Positions 19,888 through 62,906 of a stretch of DNA of 64,000 bases are shown one piece after another; positions within the stretch are counted from its first letter, which is position 1; each line of letters starts with the position of its first letter. Made by a program: the position numbers and the translations under genes. The stretch is from Limosilactobacillus sp. WILCCON 0051. GTDB lineage: Bacteria; Bacillota; Bacilli; Lactobacillales; Lactobacillaceae. The notes beneath the pieces were generated by a model that saw only the letters and a list, made by a program, of their open reading frames with translations, was not told the DNA's origin and searched no databases. The DNA lies in contig NZ_CP154878.1 of assembly GCF_039955095.1 (NCBI RefSeq), positions 496,001 to 560,000 of the forward strand, in the 5' to 3' direction.

Positions 19888-20018
19888 CTAGTAACTTGAA
19901 TATCGGTCCTTTAATGAAATCCAGAGAGGTTTCCAAGGACGCGTTAAAATAATCATCCATCTTGTAGGTTGTTTTAAGGTAGTCTTTGGGCCGAGGCTCA
20001 AGGGCTATTATTTTTATC
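19888..20018 (+). promoter_or_regulatory. PyrR-type attenuator leader of the uracil permease
   Basis: AATCCAGAGAGGTT at 19918-19931 matches the PyrR binding-loop consensus (ARUCCNGNGAGGYU). It lies in a hairpin closed by GTCCTT/AAGGAC and GAAA/TTTC arms, the anti-antiterminator. A terminator follows (AGTCTTTG with CAAGGGCT then TATTATTTTT, ~19981-20018). PyrR with UMP would favour termination, so the permease is made when pyrimidines are scarce. Confidence 0.85.
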
Positions 20019-28070: not shown

Positions 28071-28083
28071 TTTGGTTAGTCAA

Positions 28084-28116
28084 AACGTCATGCCGATTAC
28101 AGGCATGGCGTTTTTT
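28084..28116 (+). terminator. Terminator of the ATP synthase operon
   Basis: AACGTCATGCC pairs with GGCATGGCGTT (one G-T) and leads into TTTT. Confidence 0.9.
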
Positions 28117-28203: not shown

Positions 28204-28434
28204 ATGGAACTGACAGGTCTGCAGGCTTTGATTACGATCGTGATACAATTGGGCTTTATTTGGATTGCCTTTTATGCACTACAGGGACTGCATATGGAAC
28301 GTTGGTTTCGTCGTCCGCCTAAAACGCTGCCATTGCTGACGGTACTTTTGGCAACCGCGCTCGGCTACTTGAATGCCAGCTTTTTATTGACGGTTCTAAA
28401 AGCAATTCGTAATCTGATTTATCTGGCACAATAA
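28204..28434 (+). CDS. ywzB: DUF1146 family small membrane protein (YwzB-like)
   Basis: 76 residues with two transmembrane helices (about 7-28 and 45-68) and a short basic loop (HMERWFRRPPKT). DUF1146/YwzB proteins lie between the atp operon and murA-mbl in many Bacilli, as here. Function is unknown. ATG 28204 is chosen because GGGGGGAG lies five bases upstream. Confidence 0.85.
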   Translation: MELTGLQALITIVIQLGFIWIAFYALQGLHMERWFRRPPKTLPLLTVLLATALGYLNASFLLTVLKAIRNLIYLAQ

Positions 28435-28456
28435 ATCAATGTTGGAGGAAAACCAA

Positions 28457-29680
28457 ATGAAAAAAATCCTGATTCAAGGAGGGCAGCGTCTACGTGGGAG
28501 CGTTGCTGTTGCGGGGTCAACTGCCCTGGCACTGACAGCACAGGTTGCAGCGCTTTTGGCATCAACTGGTGAGCTTAAGCTGGCTAACGTTGCTGATACG
28601 ATGAATGTTGACACGATGAATGAATGCTTACAAACGCTGGGCTTGGCTGTCACTGTCAATAAGCCGACTCATCAGCTCATCATTCAATCTCAAGCAAAAC
28701 TAACGGCTGACGACCTAACGGCAATTACTTCCGTACAAGTTGCTTCATTAATGGCTGGACCGCTGTTGGCCCGCACTGGCAGCGTCAGATTAAACGAAGA
28801 TCAGGTGCCAGATGAGATTATTGCCGATCTAAGACGCCTGGGAGCTGATGTCTCGTTAAATGATGAAACTTTAGCGATCAAAGCAGGTCGTTTAAAGGGA
28901 AGTCATTTAAAGCTGACGGATAGCGACTGCCTAAATACGCAAAGTTTGATCATGGCAGCGGTACTTGCTGATGGGATTACGGTAATTGAAAATGCAGCCT
29001 GTGATTTTGAAGTCATTGCCCTGGCCAATCTTTTAAATAAGATGGGGGCTCGAGTGCATGGCGCGGGAACAAAAATCGTAAGGGTACAAGGCGTGACGTT
29101 TCTGCATGGCTGTGACTACGAGATTGCCGGCGACTATCTGGAGGCAACGGCACTGATGCTGGCTGCTGCGATAACTAATGGCGATGTGATCATAGAAAAC
29201 GTTCATCTGCAAAGCGTTCAAGGCGTGATTAATCAGCTTGAGCGGATGGGATGCACCGTAGTCGTCCAGCAAAATGGCGTTCGCGTTTTAGGAACGGCAG
29301 TCTTGCTGCCAGCTGATCCACAAAGCCTTTTTCCCAGCACAATGTACCCTGAGCTTGCAATTCTACAGCTGTTGGCTAATGGCAAAAGCAGCAATGCGGT
29401 CATGGATCAAAGACTGCTCGATCAATTGAAGAAAATGCAGGCCAGTGTCCAGGCAGCAGATGGTGAATTGATTTTAAATGGACCGGCTGAGCTTAGCGGT
29501 ATCAAGGTTGTGGCATTTGATGCCGGCAGTGCACTGACGCTGACACTGGCGGGTTTGGCAGCTAAAGGACTGACGATTGTTGAAAATGGTGCTTATCTTG
29601 GTGATGAGTTTGAAGCCTTGCCTGCCAAGCTGCAAAGTCTGGGGGCCAGTCTGCAGTCAAAGAACTTTGAATCGGCTTAA
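28457..29680 (+). CDS. MurA-like protein lacking the catalytic residues (EPSP-synthase fold)
   Basis: 407 residues align end to end with UDP-GlcNAc enolpyruvyl transferase (MurA), and the locus (atp-ywzB-here-mbl) is that of murA in Bacilli. Yet the active-site residues are missing: Lys22-Asn23 of MurA are Thr22-Ala23 (VAGSTALAL). The loop carrying Cys115 and Arg120 (GGCxIGxRPxDLH) is shortened to EDQVPDEII with no Cys (~114-122). Positions of Arg91, Asp305 and Arg397 hold other residues. It is therefore probably not a working MurA; a second, true murA should exist elsewhere. A scaffold or regulatory role near MreB/RodA is only a guess. The frame is intact, with AGGAG before ATG 28457. Confidence 0.8.
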   Translation: MKKILIQGGQRLRGSVAVAGSTALALTAQVAALLASTGELKLANVADTMNVDTMNECLQTLGLAVTVNKPTHQLIIQSQAKLTADDLTAITSVQVASLMAGPLLARTGSVRLNEDQVPDEIIADLRRLGADVSLNDETLAIKAGRLKGSHLKLTDSDCLNTQSLIMAAVLADGITVIENAACDFEVIALANLLNKMGARVHGAGTKIVRVQGVTFLHGCDYEIAGDYLEATALMLAAAITNGDVIIENVHLQSVQGVINQLERMGCTVVVQQNGVRVLGTAVLLPADPQSLFPSTMYPELAILQLLANGKSSNAVMDQRLLDQLKKMQASVQAADGELILNGPAELSGIKVVAFDAGSALTLTLAGLAAKGLTIVENGAYLGDEFEALPAKLQSLGASLQSKNFESA

Positions 29681-29751: not shown

Positions 29752-29788
29752 ATCGTTCGAATTGAGTAAAAATCGGAAGGAGAAAAAC

Positions 29789-30787
29789 ATGGCTAAGGAT
29801 ATCGGAATTGACCTTGGAACAGCCAATGTTCTGATTTACGTACAAGGAAAGGGTATCGTATTAAACGAACCATCCGTAGTGGCAATTGATACACGCACTA
29901 ATAAGGTTCTGGCAGTCGGTTCGGAAGCCTATCGCATGGTGGGACGGACGCCAAGCAACATTCGCGCGATTCGTCCACTGAAAAACGGGGTAATTTCCGA
30001 CTTTGATATGACCCAGGAAATGCTTTCTTACTTTATCAGCAAGCTTAGCGTCAAGGGCTTTATGTCAAAACCTGATATTATGATCTGTGCGCCAACCAAT
30101 ATTACGGAAATTGAGCGCAAGGCCATCATTCAAGCTGCTGAACAGTCAGGCGGCGGCAAGGTTTACCTGGAATATGAGCCAAAGGTAGCTGCAATCGGTG
30201 CGGGACTTGATATCTTCAAGCCTCGTGGCAATATGGTAATCGATATGGGTGGCGGTACCAGCGATATTGCCGTGCTTTCTTTGGGCGATATCGTAGCCAG
30301 CGAGTCGGTTCGCTTGGCTGGTGACCAGTTAAACAGTGATATTGCTGAATATATCAAAGAACATCATGGCTTGATTATTGGTGAGCATACTGCTGAACGC
30401 ATCAAGATCGAACTGGGAACGGCACAAAAGGTAGACGAGCCACAGACAATGGAAGTACGTGGTCGTGATGTTGCCAGCGGGATGCCAAAACAGATTGAAA
30501 CCAATGAAAATGAAATTGCGGATGCATTGCATGACACCTTAGAGCAGATCGTTCGCGCATCAGTTGCCGTATTGGAAACCGTACCACCAGAGCTTGCCAG
30601 CGATATTATCGATCGCGGCATCATGCTGACGGGTGGGACGGCAATGCTTCACGGTATCGATAAGCTGTTTAGTGATCGCTTAAAGGTACCCGTAGTTGTT
30701 TCACAAGACCCACTGGACAACGTGGCCAAGGGTGCTGGTGAGCTGCTGGAACGTATGCAGTCTGATAGCGGTAAAAATCACAAATAG
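29789..30787 (+). CDS. mbl: MreB/Mbl actin-like rod-shape protein (first paralogue)
   Basis: A bacterial actin that guides lateral wall synthesis. 332 residues with phosphate-binding loops [15 protein letters not shown] and VIDMGGGTSDIAVLSLG and the adenosine motif GIMLTGGTAMLHG. The start is ATG 29789 with AAGGAG upstream; a TTG 27 bases earlier precedes that site. Its position after the murA-like gene and before rodA matches Bacilli mbl. A second MreB is encoded at ~60 kb. Confidence 0.92.
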   Translation: MAKDIGIDLGTANVLIYVQGKGIVLNEPSVVAIDTRTNKVLAVGSEAYRMVGRTPSNIRAIRPLKNGVISDFDMTQEMLSYFISKLSVKGFMSKPDIMICAPTNITEIERKAIIQAAEQSGGGKVYLEYEPKVAAIGAGLDIFKPRGNMVIDMGGGTSDIAVLSLGDIVASESVRLAGDQLNSDIAEYIKEHHGLIIGEHTAERIKIELGTAQKVDEPQTMEVRGRDVASGMPKQIETNENEIADALHDTLEQIVRASVAVLETVPPELASDIIDRGIMLTGGTAMLHGIDKLFSDRLKVPVVVSQDPLDNVAKGAGELLERMQSDSGKNHK

Positions 30788-32947: not shown

Positions 32948-33226
32948 ATAATCAATTAATCGAACGAACAAATTCAAACATATCGAAAAGCAGAGTAGAT
33001 TGTGGCGCGTGCTCAGAGAGTTTCCGGTTGGTGAGAGGAAATTCGTTAAGCAGTCGAAGATGGGCTTGGAATGGTACTGGCGATATTTAGCCGGTAACGG
33101 GGTTGCAGCCGTTATCAATGCAAGGTGATTTTTTAAGTCACCTACTGAGGCTTAATTTGCGAGAATTAGGCAAAAAAAGGTGGTACCGCGAAACACTCGT
33201 CCTTTTTATAAGGATGAGTGTTTTTT
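32948..33226 (+). promoter_or_regulatory. T-box riboswitch, methionine (specifier ATG), controls metQNP
   Basis: Stem I elements GCAGAGTAGATT and CAGAGAGTTT are followed by the specifier loop CGAAG-ATG-GGC, with the Met codon at 33060-33062. The T-box core GGTGGTACCGCG is at 33179-33190. The terminator pairs ACACTCGTCCTT with AAGGATGAGTGT before TTTTTT (33193-33226). This agrees with a methionine importer downstream. Confidence 0.93.
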
Positions 33227-33333
33227 GTTTGTTTTGATTAATGATCAAACAATTGGCTGCCGGCAGGCTGTTGTTTTGAAAAGCTATTATTAAAAAGGGA
33301 TTATTTAATTGAGAATTGAGAGGAGACATCATT

Positions 33334-34182
33334 ATGAACAAGCGTAAGAAAAAAACGTTAATCTGGGTCGTTGTTGCATTGGTAGTCGTTATTGCTGGGA
33401 TCTTCAGCTTCGGCAATTTTGGCAAGCAAAAGGAACAAACCGTAACGGTCGGGGTCGTTTCACCATCTAAGCAGGATGAGGCAGTTTGGAATCAGGTTAA
33501 AAAGACGGCCAAGAGCAAATACAATGTTGATATTAAGCTCAAGACGTTTACTGACTACAACCAGCCAAACAAGGCTCTGCAAAGCGGCAGCATCGATCTG
33601 AACGCTTTCCAGCACAAAGCATTCTTGGATGCATGGAACAAGGCTAACAAAGGTTCTTTGGTTTCAATCGGCAAGACCTTCATCACGCCAATTCACCTCT
33701 ACTCCAACAACTACAAGAATGTTAAGAGTCTGCCAGATGGTGCTACGATTGCCATTCCAAACGATGCATCAAACGAAAGCCGAGCACTGTACGTTTTGCA
33801 GAGTGCAGGCTTGATTACCTTAAAGAAGAACACTGGCGCTTTGGCAACGATCAATTCAATTGCTAAGAATCCAAAGAACCTGAAGATTAAAGAAGTTGCT
33901 GCCGACCAAGCAGCACGGACGCTGGACAGTGTTGATGCAGCAGTTATCAACACCAACTATGCAGTGGCTGCCAAGATCTCAACGAAGAAGTCCATCTTTA
34001 CTGAACCAGTCAACAAGGATTCTGAACAATGGATCAACTTGATCGCTGCTCGTAAGAAGGACCGCAACAAGGAAGCCTACAAGGATGTTGTAAAGGCATA
34101 CCAAACGGAAAAGGTTAAGAAGGTCATCAACGAACAATACAAGGGTCTGGAAAAGCCAGCTTGGGACATTAAGCTGAAGTAA
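33334..34182 (+). CDS. metQ: Methionine ABC transporter substrate-binding protein (NlpA/MetQ family)
   Basis: Captures methionine outside the membrane and hands it to MetP-MetN. 282 residues with MetQ-family segments TVGVVSPSKQDEAVW, NKALQSGSIDLNAFQHKAF and IPNDASNESRALYVLQSAGLI. The N-terminal hydrophobic segment (about 9-25) has no lipobox cysteine, unlike most family members, so anchoring must be by an uncleaved helix or the protein is released. AGAGGAG precedes ATG 33334. The Met T-box supports the substrate. Confidence 0.92.
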   Translation: MNKRKKKTLIWVVVALVVVIAGIFSFGNFGKQKEQTVTVGVVSPSKQDEAVWNQVKKTAKSKYNVDIKLKTFTDYNQPNKALQSGSIDLNAFQHKAFLDAWNKANKGSLVSIGKTFITPIHLYSNNYKNVKSLPDGATIAIPNDASNESRALYVLQSAGLITLKKNTGALATINSIAKNPKNLKIKEVAADQAARTLDSVDAAVINTNYAVAAKISTKKSIFTEPVNKDSEQWINLIAARKKDRNKEAYKDVVKAYQTEKVKKVINEQYKGLEKPAWDIKLK

Positions 34183-34211
34183 TTTCCACCAGATAGAAGG
34201 AGAAGAGATAT

Positions 34212-35279
34212 ATGGGGACAAACATTATTGATTTGGAACACATCGACGTTACGTTCCAGACTGGCAAAAACGAAACTGTTCAAGCCGTTAAGGATGTCAC
34301 CCTGCAAGTCGAAAAAGGCGACATCTATGGGGTAGTTGGCTACTCGGGTGCCGGCAAGTCAACGCTGGTTCGCACGATCAACCTGCTGCAAAAGCCAACT
34401 GCAGGCAAGATCACGGTTGAAGGCGAAGTGCTGTTTGCCGATCACAAGCAGCAGATCAGCAACGCAAAACTGCAGGAAAAGCGACGCAACATCGGAATGA
34501 TCTTTCAGCATTTCAATCTGCTGAACGAAACGACGGTGCTCGACAATGTCATGTTTGCCCTCAAGCACAGTAAGCTCAGTGATGACGAGGTCGAACAAAA
34601 GTCATTGAAACTCTTGGATCTGGTCGGCTTAAAGGATAAGGCCGATGCCTATCCAGTTCAGCTTTCCGGTGGCGAGCAGCAGCGGGTTGCCATTGCCCGG
34701 GCACTGGCCAATGATCCAGAAATTTTGATTTCTGACGAGGCAACCTCGGCGCTGGACCCTCGTAATACCAACCAGATTTTGGACCTGCTCAAGGATTTAA
34801 ATGAAAAGATTGGTCTTACGATCATCTTGATTACTCACGAAATGGATGCCGTTAAGCGTGTTGCCAACAAGATTGCGGTAATGCAGCATGGGGTGATCAT
34901 TGAAAAAGGCGAGCTGCGGCAAGTCTTCTTGCGGCCGCAGCAGGAACTGACGCGTCAGTTTGTCGGTGGTTCACTGGCGGCCATGGATACGCTGCGTTCA
35001 ATGAACCTGGGGACGCTTAATGATGATGAAGAGCTGTATCAGCTGGTCTACAGCGGCGATTCAGTTGCTGAGCCACTGATTATCGGACTTTACCGGGCAA
35101 CCGGCGTCGAAGCCAGCATGATCTATGGCAACGTTGAGGTATTAGGCAACGTGCCGATCGGGATGCTGTTTGTGATCGTAAAGGGAACGCCTGATCAAAG
35201 AGAGGCGGCCGTAAAGTTCTTTAAGGATCAAGACGTTGAAGTAACCAAGATTGATGATCGGGGGATTTGGCATGACTGA
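34212..35279 (+). CDS. metN: Methionine ABC transporter ATP-binding protein
   Basis: Powers methionine import. 355 residues: Walker [10 protein letters not shown] (43-51), signature [15 protein letters not shown], Walker [13 protein letters not shown], then a C-terminal NIL domain (about 275-355) that senses methionine in E. coli MetN and inhibits transport. GAAGGAGA precedes the ATG; it overlaps metP by 8 bases. Confidence 0.95.
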
Positions 35280-35973
35280 GTTTTTTGCAAAATATTTTCC
35301 TAATGTCGTCCAACTCGGCTGGAGCGGCGACAGTGGCTGGGGTACCTCAATTGGTCAAACGCTCTATATGACGTTTTGGCCAGCTGTCTTTGGTGGCATC
35401 CTCGGTGTGTTGTTCGGTGTGATTCTGGTAGTTGCAAAACCTGGCGGCATTATGGAGAATAAGACGCTGTTTAGTATTTCTGACAAGATCGTCTCATTGT
35501 TCCGGGCCATTCCATTTATCATTTTGTTGGCCTTCATTGCTCCGTTTACGCAATTGATCGTTGGTACGCAGATTGGGACAACGGCTGCTTTGGTACCATT
35601 GTCCTTGGGATTCTTCCCATTTTATGCCCGTCAAGTTCAGGTTGCGCTGGAAAGCGTGAACTATGGTAAGATCGAGGCTGCTCAGGCAATTGGTGCTACC
35701 AATGCTGATATCATCTTTGAAGTCTACTTGCGTGAAGCACGTTCTGAATTGGTGCGGGTGACTACGGTTTCACTGATCAGTCTGGTTGGTCTCACGGCCA
35801 TGGCTGGTGCGGTTGGTGCCGGTGGCCTTGGTAATACGGCCATTGCCTATGGATACGATCGTTTCTGCAACGACATTACAATCGTGGCGACCTTGCTGGT
35901 ATTGCTGCTGGTGATTATCATTCAACTGGTTGGTGACGTTTTGGCAAAGGCCGTTAACCACCAAAACCGTTAA
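35272..35973 (+). CDS. metP: Methionine ABC transporter permease
   Basis: 233 residues, five or six membrane helices; the ATPase-docking EAA loop is [29 protein letters not shown] 35272 overlaps the end of metN, with GGGGGAT upstream. Also named metI. Confidence 0.95.
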
Positions 35974-54691: not shown

Positions 54692-54931
54692 ATTCAAGCA
54701 TTGAACGAGAGAGTAGATCTGGTAAAGCCGTTTAGAGAGACCTTGTTGCTGAAAAAAGGTTCGGTTTGCCAGATTGAAGGTAGCTCGCGAGCAGAATTGC
54801 TGAAACCAAGTAGGCAGTTCCGGTTCATGGCCGATATCCCATGTTTGAGTGGAAGCCTGTCTTTGGATGGGTTTCAATTTAGGTGGTACCGCGAGCAGAC
54901 TCGTCCTAATTATTAGGGCGAGTCTTTTTTT
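54692..54931 (+). promoter_or_regulatory. T-box riboswitch, valine (specifier GTA), controls valS
   Basis: Stem I begins GAGAGAGTAGAT; the specifier loop reads TTGAAG-GTA-GCT with the Val codon at 54780-54782. T-box core GGTGGTACCGCG at 54882-54893. The terminator pairs AGACTCGTCCTAA with TTAGGGCGAGTCT before seven T (54897-54931). Confidence 0.94.
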
Positions 54932-62517: not shown

Positions 62518-62906
62518 AATTATTAAAAAACGATAACAAAAACAAAGAACAGACTAGTAGCTGTTTAGCCGACTGCTTAGCGAGTCGCGGTTGATGGGAA
62601 GCGACCAGAAGGCAACAGTGAATCACATCTGCGAGTTGGGCGATCGAATTTAGTAAGTCGCTCCGGGGAAGCCCGTTACAGCACAGAGTTTAGATTTGAA
62701 CTCGCTGAGGCAGTCTAGCGTGAGCTGACTGCAATGATGAGGTGGAACCGCGGCAACGCCCTCTGAGCCATGTGCTCGGGGGCGTTTTTGCTTTTCTGGA
62801 AAGTTTGAACTTAATGAGGCAATGGCTGTGAAGCCGTTGCAAATCCGAGGTGGGATCACGCTGCGGCGTCCTCGACAGTCGTTATGACTGTTGAGGACGT
62901 TTTTTG
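62518..62906 (+). promoter_or_regulatory. T-box leader with one Stem I and two serial antiterminator/terminator units; specifier CAC (His)
   Basis: Stem I shows ACTAGTAGC, AGCGAGTCGCGG and the loop GTGAAT-CAC-ATC, giving a His codon at 62624-62626. The first T-box core is GGTGGAACCGCG (62741-62752), with terminator AACGCCCTCTGAGC/GCTCGGGGGCGTT and TTTTT (62755-62789). Only about 60 bases later comes GGTGGGATCACG (62849-62860), preceded by a small stem (GCAATGGC/GCCGTTGC). A perfect terminator CGTCCTC-GACAGTC/GACTGT-TGAGGACG with TTTTTT then ends the leader (62866-62906). There is no room for a second Stem I. Confidence 0.85.

Follow-up and report, generated by a model that had tools for sequence, protein, structure and literature searches.

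The window, a stretch of 64,000 nucleotides from Limosilactobacillus sp. WILCCON 0051 (contig NZ_CP154878.1, positions 496,001 to 560,000), carries at its murA1 locus an open reading frame (ORF) of 407 amino acids (aa; 28457..29680, + strand) that, judged from its sequence, is a MurA1-derived pseudoenzyme. The ORF combines loss of the catalytic residues with purifying selection, as expected of a selected pseudoenzyme, and degenerate MurA1 of this kind is very probably a selected non-catalytic protein. It is probably, if with less confidence, one with a protein-contact role of some kind. A contact protein would most simply account for the kept fold and part of the surface, the lost pocket, the selection, and the active paralogue. 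With its catalytic residues gone and the protein still selected, the gene seems to represent a natural separation-of-function experiment, which points to a non-catalytic function of MurA1 and narrows the possible location of that function on the protein.

Loss of the active site

The frame runs undamaged from the ATG at 28457 to the TAA at 29680, in line with an earlier note on this DNA, which had described it as intact and full length. Membership in the EPSP synthase/MurA fold superfamily was found with PF00275 (159 bits, cut-off 22.8), murA profile models cover nearly the full length of the ORF, and structure prediction keeps the MurA fold. The position between DUF1146 and mbl and the descent from the genus MurA1 place the ORF in the MurA1 orthologous lineage; the gene tree nests it in the MurA1 of the genus, its exact place within that clade being uncertain due to long branches. 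With MurA/MurAA (UDP-N-acetylglucosamine [UDP-GlcNAc] 1-carboxyvinyltransferase 1) of Firmicutes it thus shares predicted fold, length, the atpC/DUF1146-mbl locus, and gene-tree nesting. However, it lacks key catalytic and substrate residues, and its scores stay below the TIGR01072 equivalog cut-off (241.3 vs. 392.7 bits) and the curated cut-off of NF006873 (253.7 vs. 297 bits).

Residues were compared in E. coli MurA numbering with a reference sequence identical to 1uae. None of the seven residues that we take to be key to MurA (Lys22, Asn23, Arg91, Cys/Asp115, Arg120, Asp305, and Arg397) is kept in the window protein. The alignment gave the replacements K22T, N23A, R91Q, R120Q, R232Y, D305T, R371G, and R397D, while R331 is kept. 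Cys115 is absent, and the surrounding loop is seven residues shorter. On the + strand, the Thr22-Ala23 codons that replace Lys22-Asn23 lie at 28520..28525, the junction of the shortened loop without Cys115 and its neighbours at 28793..28804 (the exact place depends on the alignment), the Thr295 codon at the Asp305 position at 29339..29341, and the Asp383 codon at the Arg397 position at 29603..29605. The replaced catalytic positions that the earlier note had read by eye were thereby confirmed.

Loss of nine residues (Lys22, Asn23, Arg91, Cys115, Arg120, Arg232, Asp305, Arg371, and Arg397) is common to the window protein and its two clade mates. An error in one genome is excluded, since relatives of 93% identity (L. 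mucosae DSM 13345; G026 likewise) and 71% identity carry the same state. At 41 sites assumed to be in or adjacent to the active site, the mucosae clade and three GD lineages kept 0.09-0.18 of the genus-canonical residues, the copy L042 0.34, and the copy L039 0.73. The residues that presumably bind UDP-GlcNAc in MurA (N23, R120, 160-164, and D305) are replaced in the clade of the window, and the UDP-GlcNAc binding proposed in the earlier note finds no support in a site so little kept.

Distribution of degenerate copies

A gene occurred at the DUF1146-[murA1]-mbl locus in 47 of 50 Limosilactobacillus genomes, with atpC in view in 41 of the 47. All seven key residues were present in 31 of these copies and 16 were degenerate, forming a graded series of residue loss. 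L039 is only partly changed, having lost Cys115 and Arg91, and L042 is additionally without Asn23, Arg120, Arg331, and Arg397. In the mucosae clade (3 members) and the GD clade (11 members), nearly all key residues are lost. No common replacement set was found across the degenerate copies. A species tree built on MurA2, Mbl, AtpC, and YidD requires at least three changes of state; its base is weak (52/56), and G008, G014, and G015 are not part of it. The deletions differ between the mucosae and GD clades, which would suggest four origins. The gene tree was not used to count origins, as it grouped strongly degenerate rows and gave long-branch warnings. Within the GD clade (L043-L053), 10 or more of the 11 rows have acquired a new residue in each of 15 columns, among them Asp21 and Gln232 (E. 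coli numbering), and such fixed residues in the former cleft hint at a possible second specialization. In these species, copies annotated as murA should not be counted as enzymes before their active sites are inspected.

Three genomes of the genus had no murA1 match: G014 (78% complete), G008, and G015. G008 (94% complete) and G015 (100% complete) also lack a close MreB/Mbl, and their rod machinery may be lost. This co-loss is the sole hint of a link between murA1 and Mbl. The earlier note had named the neighbours mbl, yidD, and rodA correctly, but a tie of murA1 to Mbl does not stand as a general rule. Of 151 genomes of the family, many show no murA1 match although an Mbl-like protein is present, and G117, G061, and G193 have murA1 without an Mbl/MreB match at E 1e-60.

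Among 144 genomes of other genera, 79 gave a murA1-type match and 65 gave none at E 1e-30, a cut-off that could hide very degenerate copies. Twenty of the 79, mostly low scoring, were fetched; all seven key residues are present in 19, and the copy of G132 is split. Degeneration outside the genus was not seen among these 20, the remaining 59 being judged by score only. The split copy (L123 of G132) lies between DUF1146 and mbl in two frames, having either broken recently or been misassembled.

Selection on degenerate MurA1

The ratio of nonsynonymous to synonymous substitution (omega, dN/dS) was estimated by the NG86 method, a crude estimate made with no codon-model test. The window gene gave 0.130 (95% 0.078-0.199) when compared with its nearest relative and 0.168 (0.116-0.234) with the remaining member of the clade; one pair from the GD clade gave 0.059 (0.029-0.101). 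For canonical pairs, the values were 0.094, 0.062, and 0.030, and six further canonical pairs ranged from 0.021 to 0.044. Several distant pairs were saturated at synonymous sites and uninformative. Constraint in the clade of the window therefore looks relaxed yet still strong. All 16 degenerate copies consist of one uninterrupted frame of 405-432 aa. Purifying selection, which the earlier note had named as one check on its claim of a retained non-catalytic role, was thus found in both clades, and it supports that claim together with the recurrence of similar degenerate states in the genus; neutral decay, which would have spoken against it, is not what open frames and omega values well below 1 indicate.

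MurA2, the second copy

The genome of the window, a single contig of 2.36 Mb close to L. mucosae, contains three matches to the EPSP-synthase family: an AroA-like gene, MurA2, and the ORF at the murA1 locus. MurA2 lies at a separate locus, following an ORF that by eye resembles CTP synthase, and keeps the key residues with Asp at 115. The canonical MurA that the earlier note had thought to look for elsewhere in the genome is present as a second MurA, but with the motif GGDNIG and not GGCxIG. K22, N23, R91, D115, R120, D305, and R397 were present in all 48 MurA2s fetched from the genus (L054-L101, covering the 50 genomes except G019 and G040). An intact MurA2 of the Asp115 type was found in all 45 genomes examined of the 47 with a gene at the murA1 locus. 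MurA can work with Asp in place of Cys115. Because the window MurA1 lacks the key residues and MurA2 keeps them, MurA2 is the only plausible MurA enzyme of this genome. It belongs to the same superfamily and genome as the window protein (MurZ/MurAB type), but differs in the other key residues, which it keeps, and in its locus.

MurA2-type genes examined from other genera also have Asp at the Cys115 position. Three genomes of the genus coded g17 (L129-L131, L136-L138) carry two MurA2-type genes each, both low-scoring matches with Asp115, and no murA1-type match. In G064 (L133/L139), the sole murA-type matches are MurA2-like and occupy two adjacent frames.

Retained regions

Retention was calculated for five strongly degenerate lineages against the consensus of 17 active MurA1s of the genus. 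Of the 31 canonical genus copies, 17 were aligned, as were 11 of the 48 MurA2s, and L039 was excluded from the 15 degenerate copies because it is only partly changed. For the comparison with other genera, 17 of the 20 fetched copies were used, without L123 (split), L120 (in-frame stop in the match), and L126 (treated apart). Mean retention in the five lineages was 0.37 and was lowest around Arg91, Cys115, Asp305, and Arg397 (about 0.06-0.2). The best-kept stretch of 15 residues corresponds to Listeria MurA 195-209 with a retention of 0.81, a value reached in 0 of 5000 permutations and in 21 of 10000 with the active-site segments excluded. Two retained patches were delimited on the + strand of the window: patch 1 at 29021..29116 (aa 189-220, Listeria MurA 195-226), in which aa 191 is the equivalent of Asn197, and patch 2 at 29234..29311 (aa 260-285, Listeria MurA 266-291), just before which Gly256 is the equivalent of Ser262. 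From the MurA domain order, we take this region to flank the hinge.

In the clade of the window, the proportion of nonsynonymous differences (pN) reached 0.265 and 0.255 in the stretches near the former active site, compared with 0.079 and 0.103 in those at the two patches and 0.063 in the stretch separating the patches. The whole hinge region evolves slowly in this clade. Retention in active MurA1s of other genera (n=17) was 0.92 for the active site, 0.60 for the patch, and 0.61 for the rest, whereas the degenerate lineages showed 0.09-0.34, 0.54-0.75, and 0.28-0.47, respectively. Five residues (in Listeria numbering H207, R215, Q217, T273, and T286) do not vary among the 17 canonical and 15 degenerate copies aligned but do so among active MurA1s from other genera; outside the patch, M1, Q29, and V45 behave likewise. 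The enrichment of genus-fixed residues in the patch is modest (Fisher p 0.016) for a patch defined after viewing the alignment. How well a site is retained in the degenerate copies was weakly rank-correlated with its conservation in other genera (-0.13, p 0.08). Of 121 sites invariant in active enzymes of the genus and other genera, 17 persist unchanged throughout the 15 degenerate copies, and many of these are Gly, Ala, or Leu.

Possible roles of the degenerate protein

Many Firmicutes carry two MurA genes, and the degenerate copies bear on why both are kept. The MurA1 of the genus may have had a second job independent of catalysis. Once MurA2 of the Asp115 type took over the chemistry, the MurA1 active site would have been free to erode, and the contact surface would have stayed. 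In Listeria and relatives, ReoM/ClpC-dependent control reportedly acts on MurA, and we take residues 197 and 262 of Listeria MurA, Asn and Ser in the alignment, to be sites where mutations escape ReoM- and ClpC-dependent degradation. The retained region could dock on ReoM (IreB) and hence on ClpC-dependent control; pseudo-MurA would compete for these factors, and PASTA-kinase signalling would thereby set the level of MurA2. It is a tentative proposal that pseudo-MurA acts as a decoy or adaptor that tunes MurA2 through the PASTA kinase-ReoM-ClpC circuit; the regulatory function of the hinge-flanking region would then have parted from catalysis on three or more occasions. ReoM was found in the window genome and in 46 of 47 scanned genomes of the genus (the miss, G021, is 75% complete), and a PASTA kinase and ClpC were recognized in the window genome from PASTA and Clp_N matches and by eye. 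The best-kept stretch includes Listeria position 197. Unlike the Listeria target, the candidate targets in this genus lack catalytic residues and mostly do not keep residues 197 and 262. Regulatory pseudoenzymes as a general class are likewise inactive paralogues that selection maintains alongside an active copy, and we know of no MurA example of a pseudoenzyme that regulates its paralogue.

Several observations weigh against docking on ReoM or a contact role of the patches. The window protein has Asn at Listeria position 197 and Gly at 262; of the 16 degenerate copies, 4 (L042 and the mucosae clade) keep Asn197 and 2 keep Ser262, a residue present in only 11 of the 17 canonical genus copies. 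Because these residues are mostly not kept, confidence in ReoM/ClpC docking was lowered. ReoM also occurs in G008 and G015, both without a murA1 match, and the 65 genomes of other genera without a murA1-type match point the same way. The patch limits were set post hoc from the alignment, and its rows are not independent. In the lineages GDPE (0.57) and SDE (0.54), the patch is retained slightly less well than in active MurA1s from other genera (0.60) or in Listeria (0.64); it stands out against the rest of the same proteins, at 0.28-0.29 compared to 0.61-0.64 in the active comparators. Within the clade of the window, stretch 223-250, outside both patches, is slower still (the pN of 0.063), and selection may be preserving the fold or the stability of the hinge.

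The decoy or adaptor role is slightly preferred over a heterodimer, itself a possibility of similarly low confidence, in which pseudo-MurA1 would pair with active MurA2 and tune or stabilize it through the retained region. PDB entry 9a7b, 'Integrative model of MURA2-MURA1 by crosslinking MS and deep learning', ranks with the best structural matches, and the intact MurA2 in the 45 examined murA1-locus genomes fits such a partnership, but G008 and G015 carry MurA2 without a murA1 match. It is rather unlikely that the hinge-flanking region is kept for folding only, with the true working surface elsewhere. The 17 invariant sites and the slow stretch 223-250 agree with structural retention, whereas the polar, genus-specific H207, R215, Q217, T273, and T286, and Q29 outside the patch, are kept even though they vary in active enzymes of other genera. 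Repurposing of the old cleft for ligand binding or new chemistry would explain the 15 fixed columns of the GD clade with Asp21 and Gln232, yet these residues are not common to the mucosae clade, where the old-active-site stretches change fastest, and this explanation is improbable.

A UDP-GlcNAc sensor or scaffold, as the earlier note had suggested, is very unlikely because the binding pocket is lost: the predicted fold and Arg331 of the window protein are kept, but the presumed binding residues are replaced in its clade. Equally slight is the chance that a redundant paralogue is decaying neutrally and its frame has so far escaped damage. Other genera can often do without the gene, a frameshifted copy exists in G132, and omega in two of the three degenerate pairs exceeds that of canonical pairs; however, the values of 0.06-0.17 have intervals well below 1, and no degenerate frame is interrupted. 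Least probable of all is a MurA that still works with substituted catalytic groups. The replacement of Cys115 by Asp, presumably functional in MurA2 here, offers a precedent, but all seven key residues are gone in the window protein and the degenerate copies have no replacement set in common.

Locus and other features of the window

All features of the locus lie on the + strand. A ribosome-binding site (GGAGG) was read from the sequence at 28444..28448, upstream of murA1, and most degenerate orthologues are preceded by Shine-Dalgarno-like stretches, weak in L046. The DUF1146 gene (28204..28434; ATG 28204 by eye, listed start TTG 28183) ends 22 bases 5' of the murA1 start and is possibly on the same transcript. 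After atpC, a terminator-like hairpin occurs at 28082..28114, which is weak evidence as one was found against a shuffle mean of 1.5. Downstream of murA1 lies mbl (MreB-like, 29762..30787), with a likely start at ATG 29789 by eye. Elsewhere in the window, a PyrR site and three T-box leaders were found at 19904-20013, 32974-33207, 54692-54911, and 62536-62766; the T-box at 32974 lies 5' of 33316-35973, by eye a substrate-binding protein and ABC transporter.
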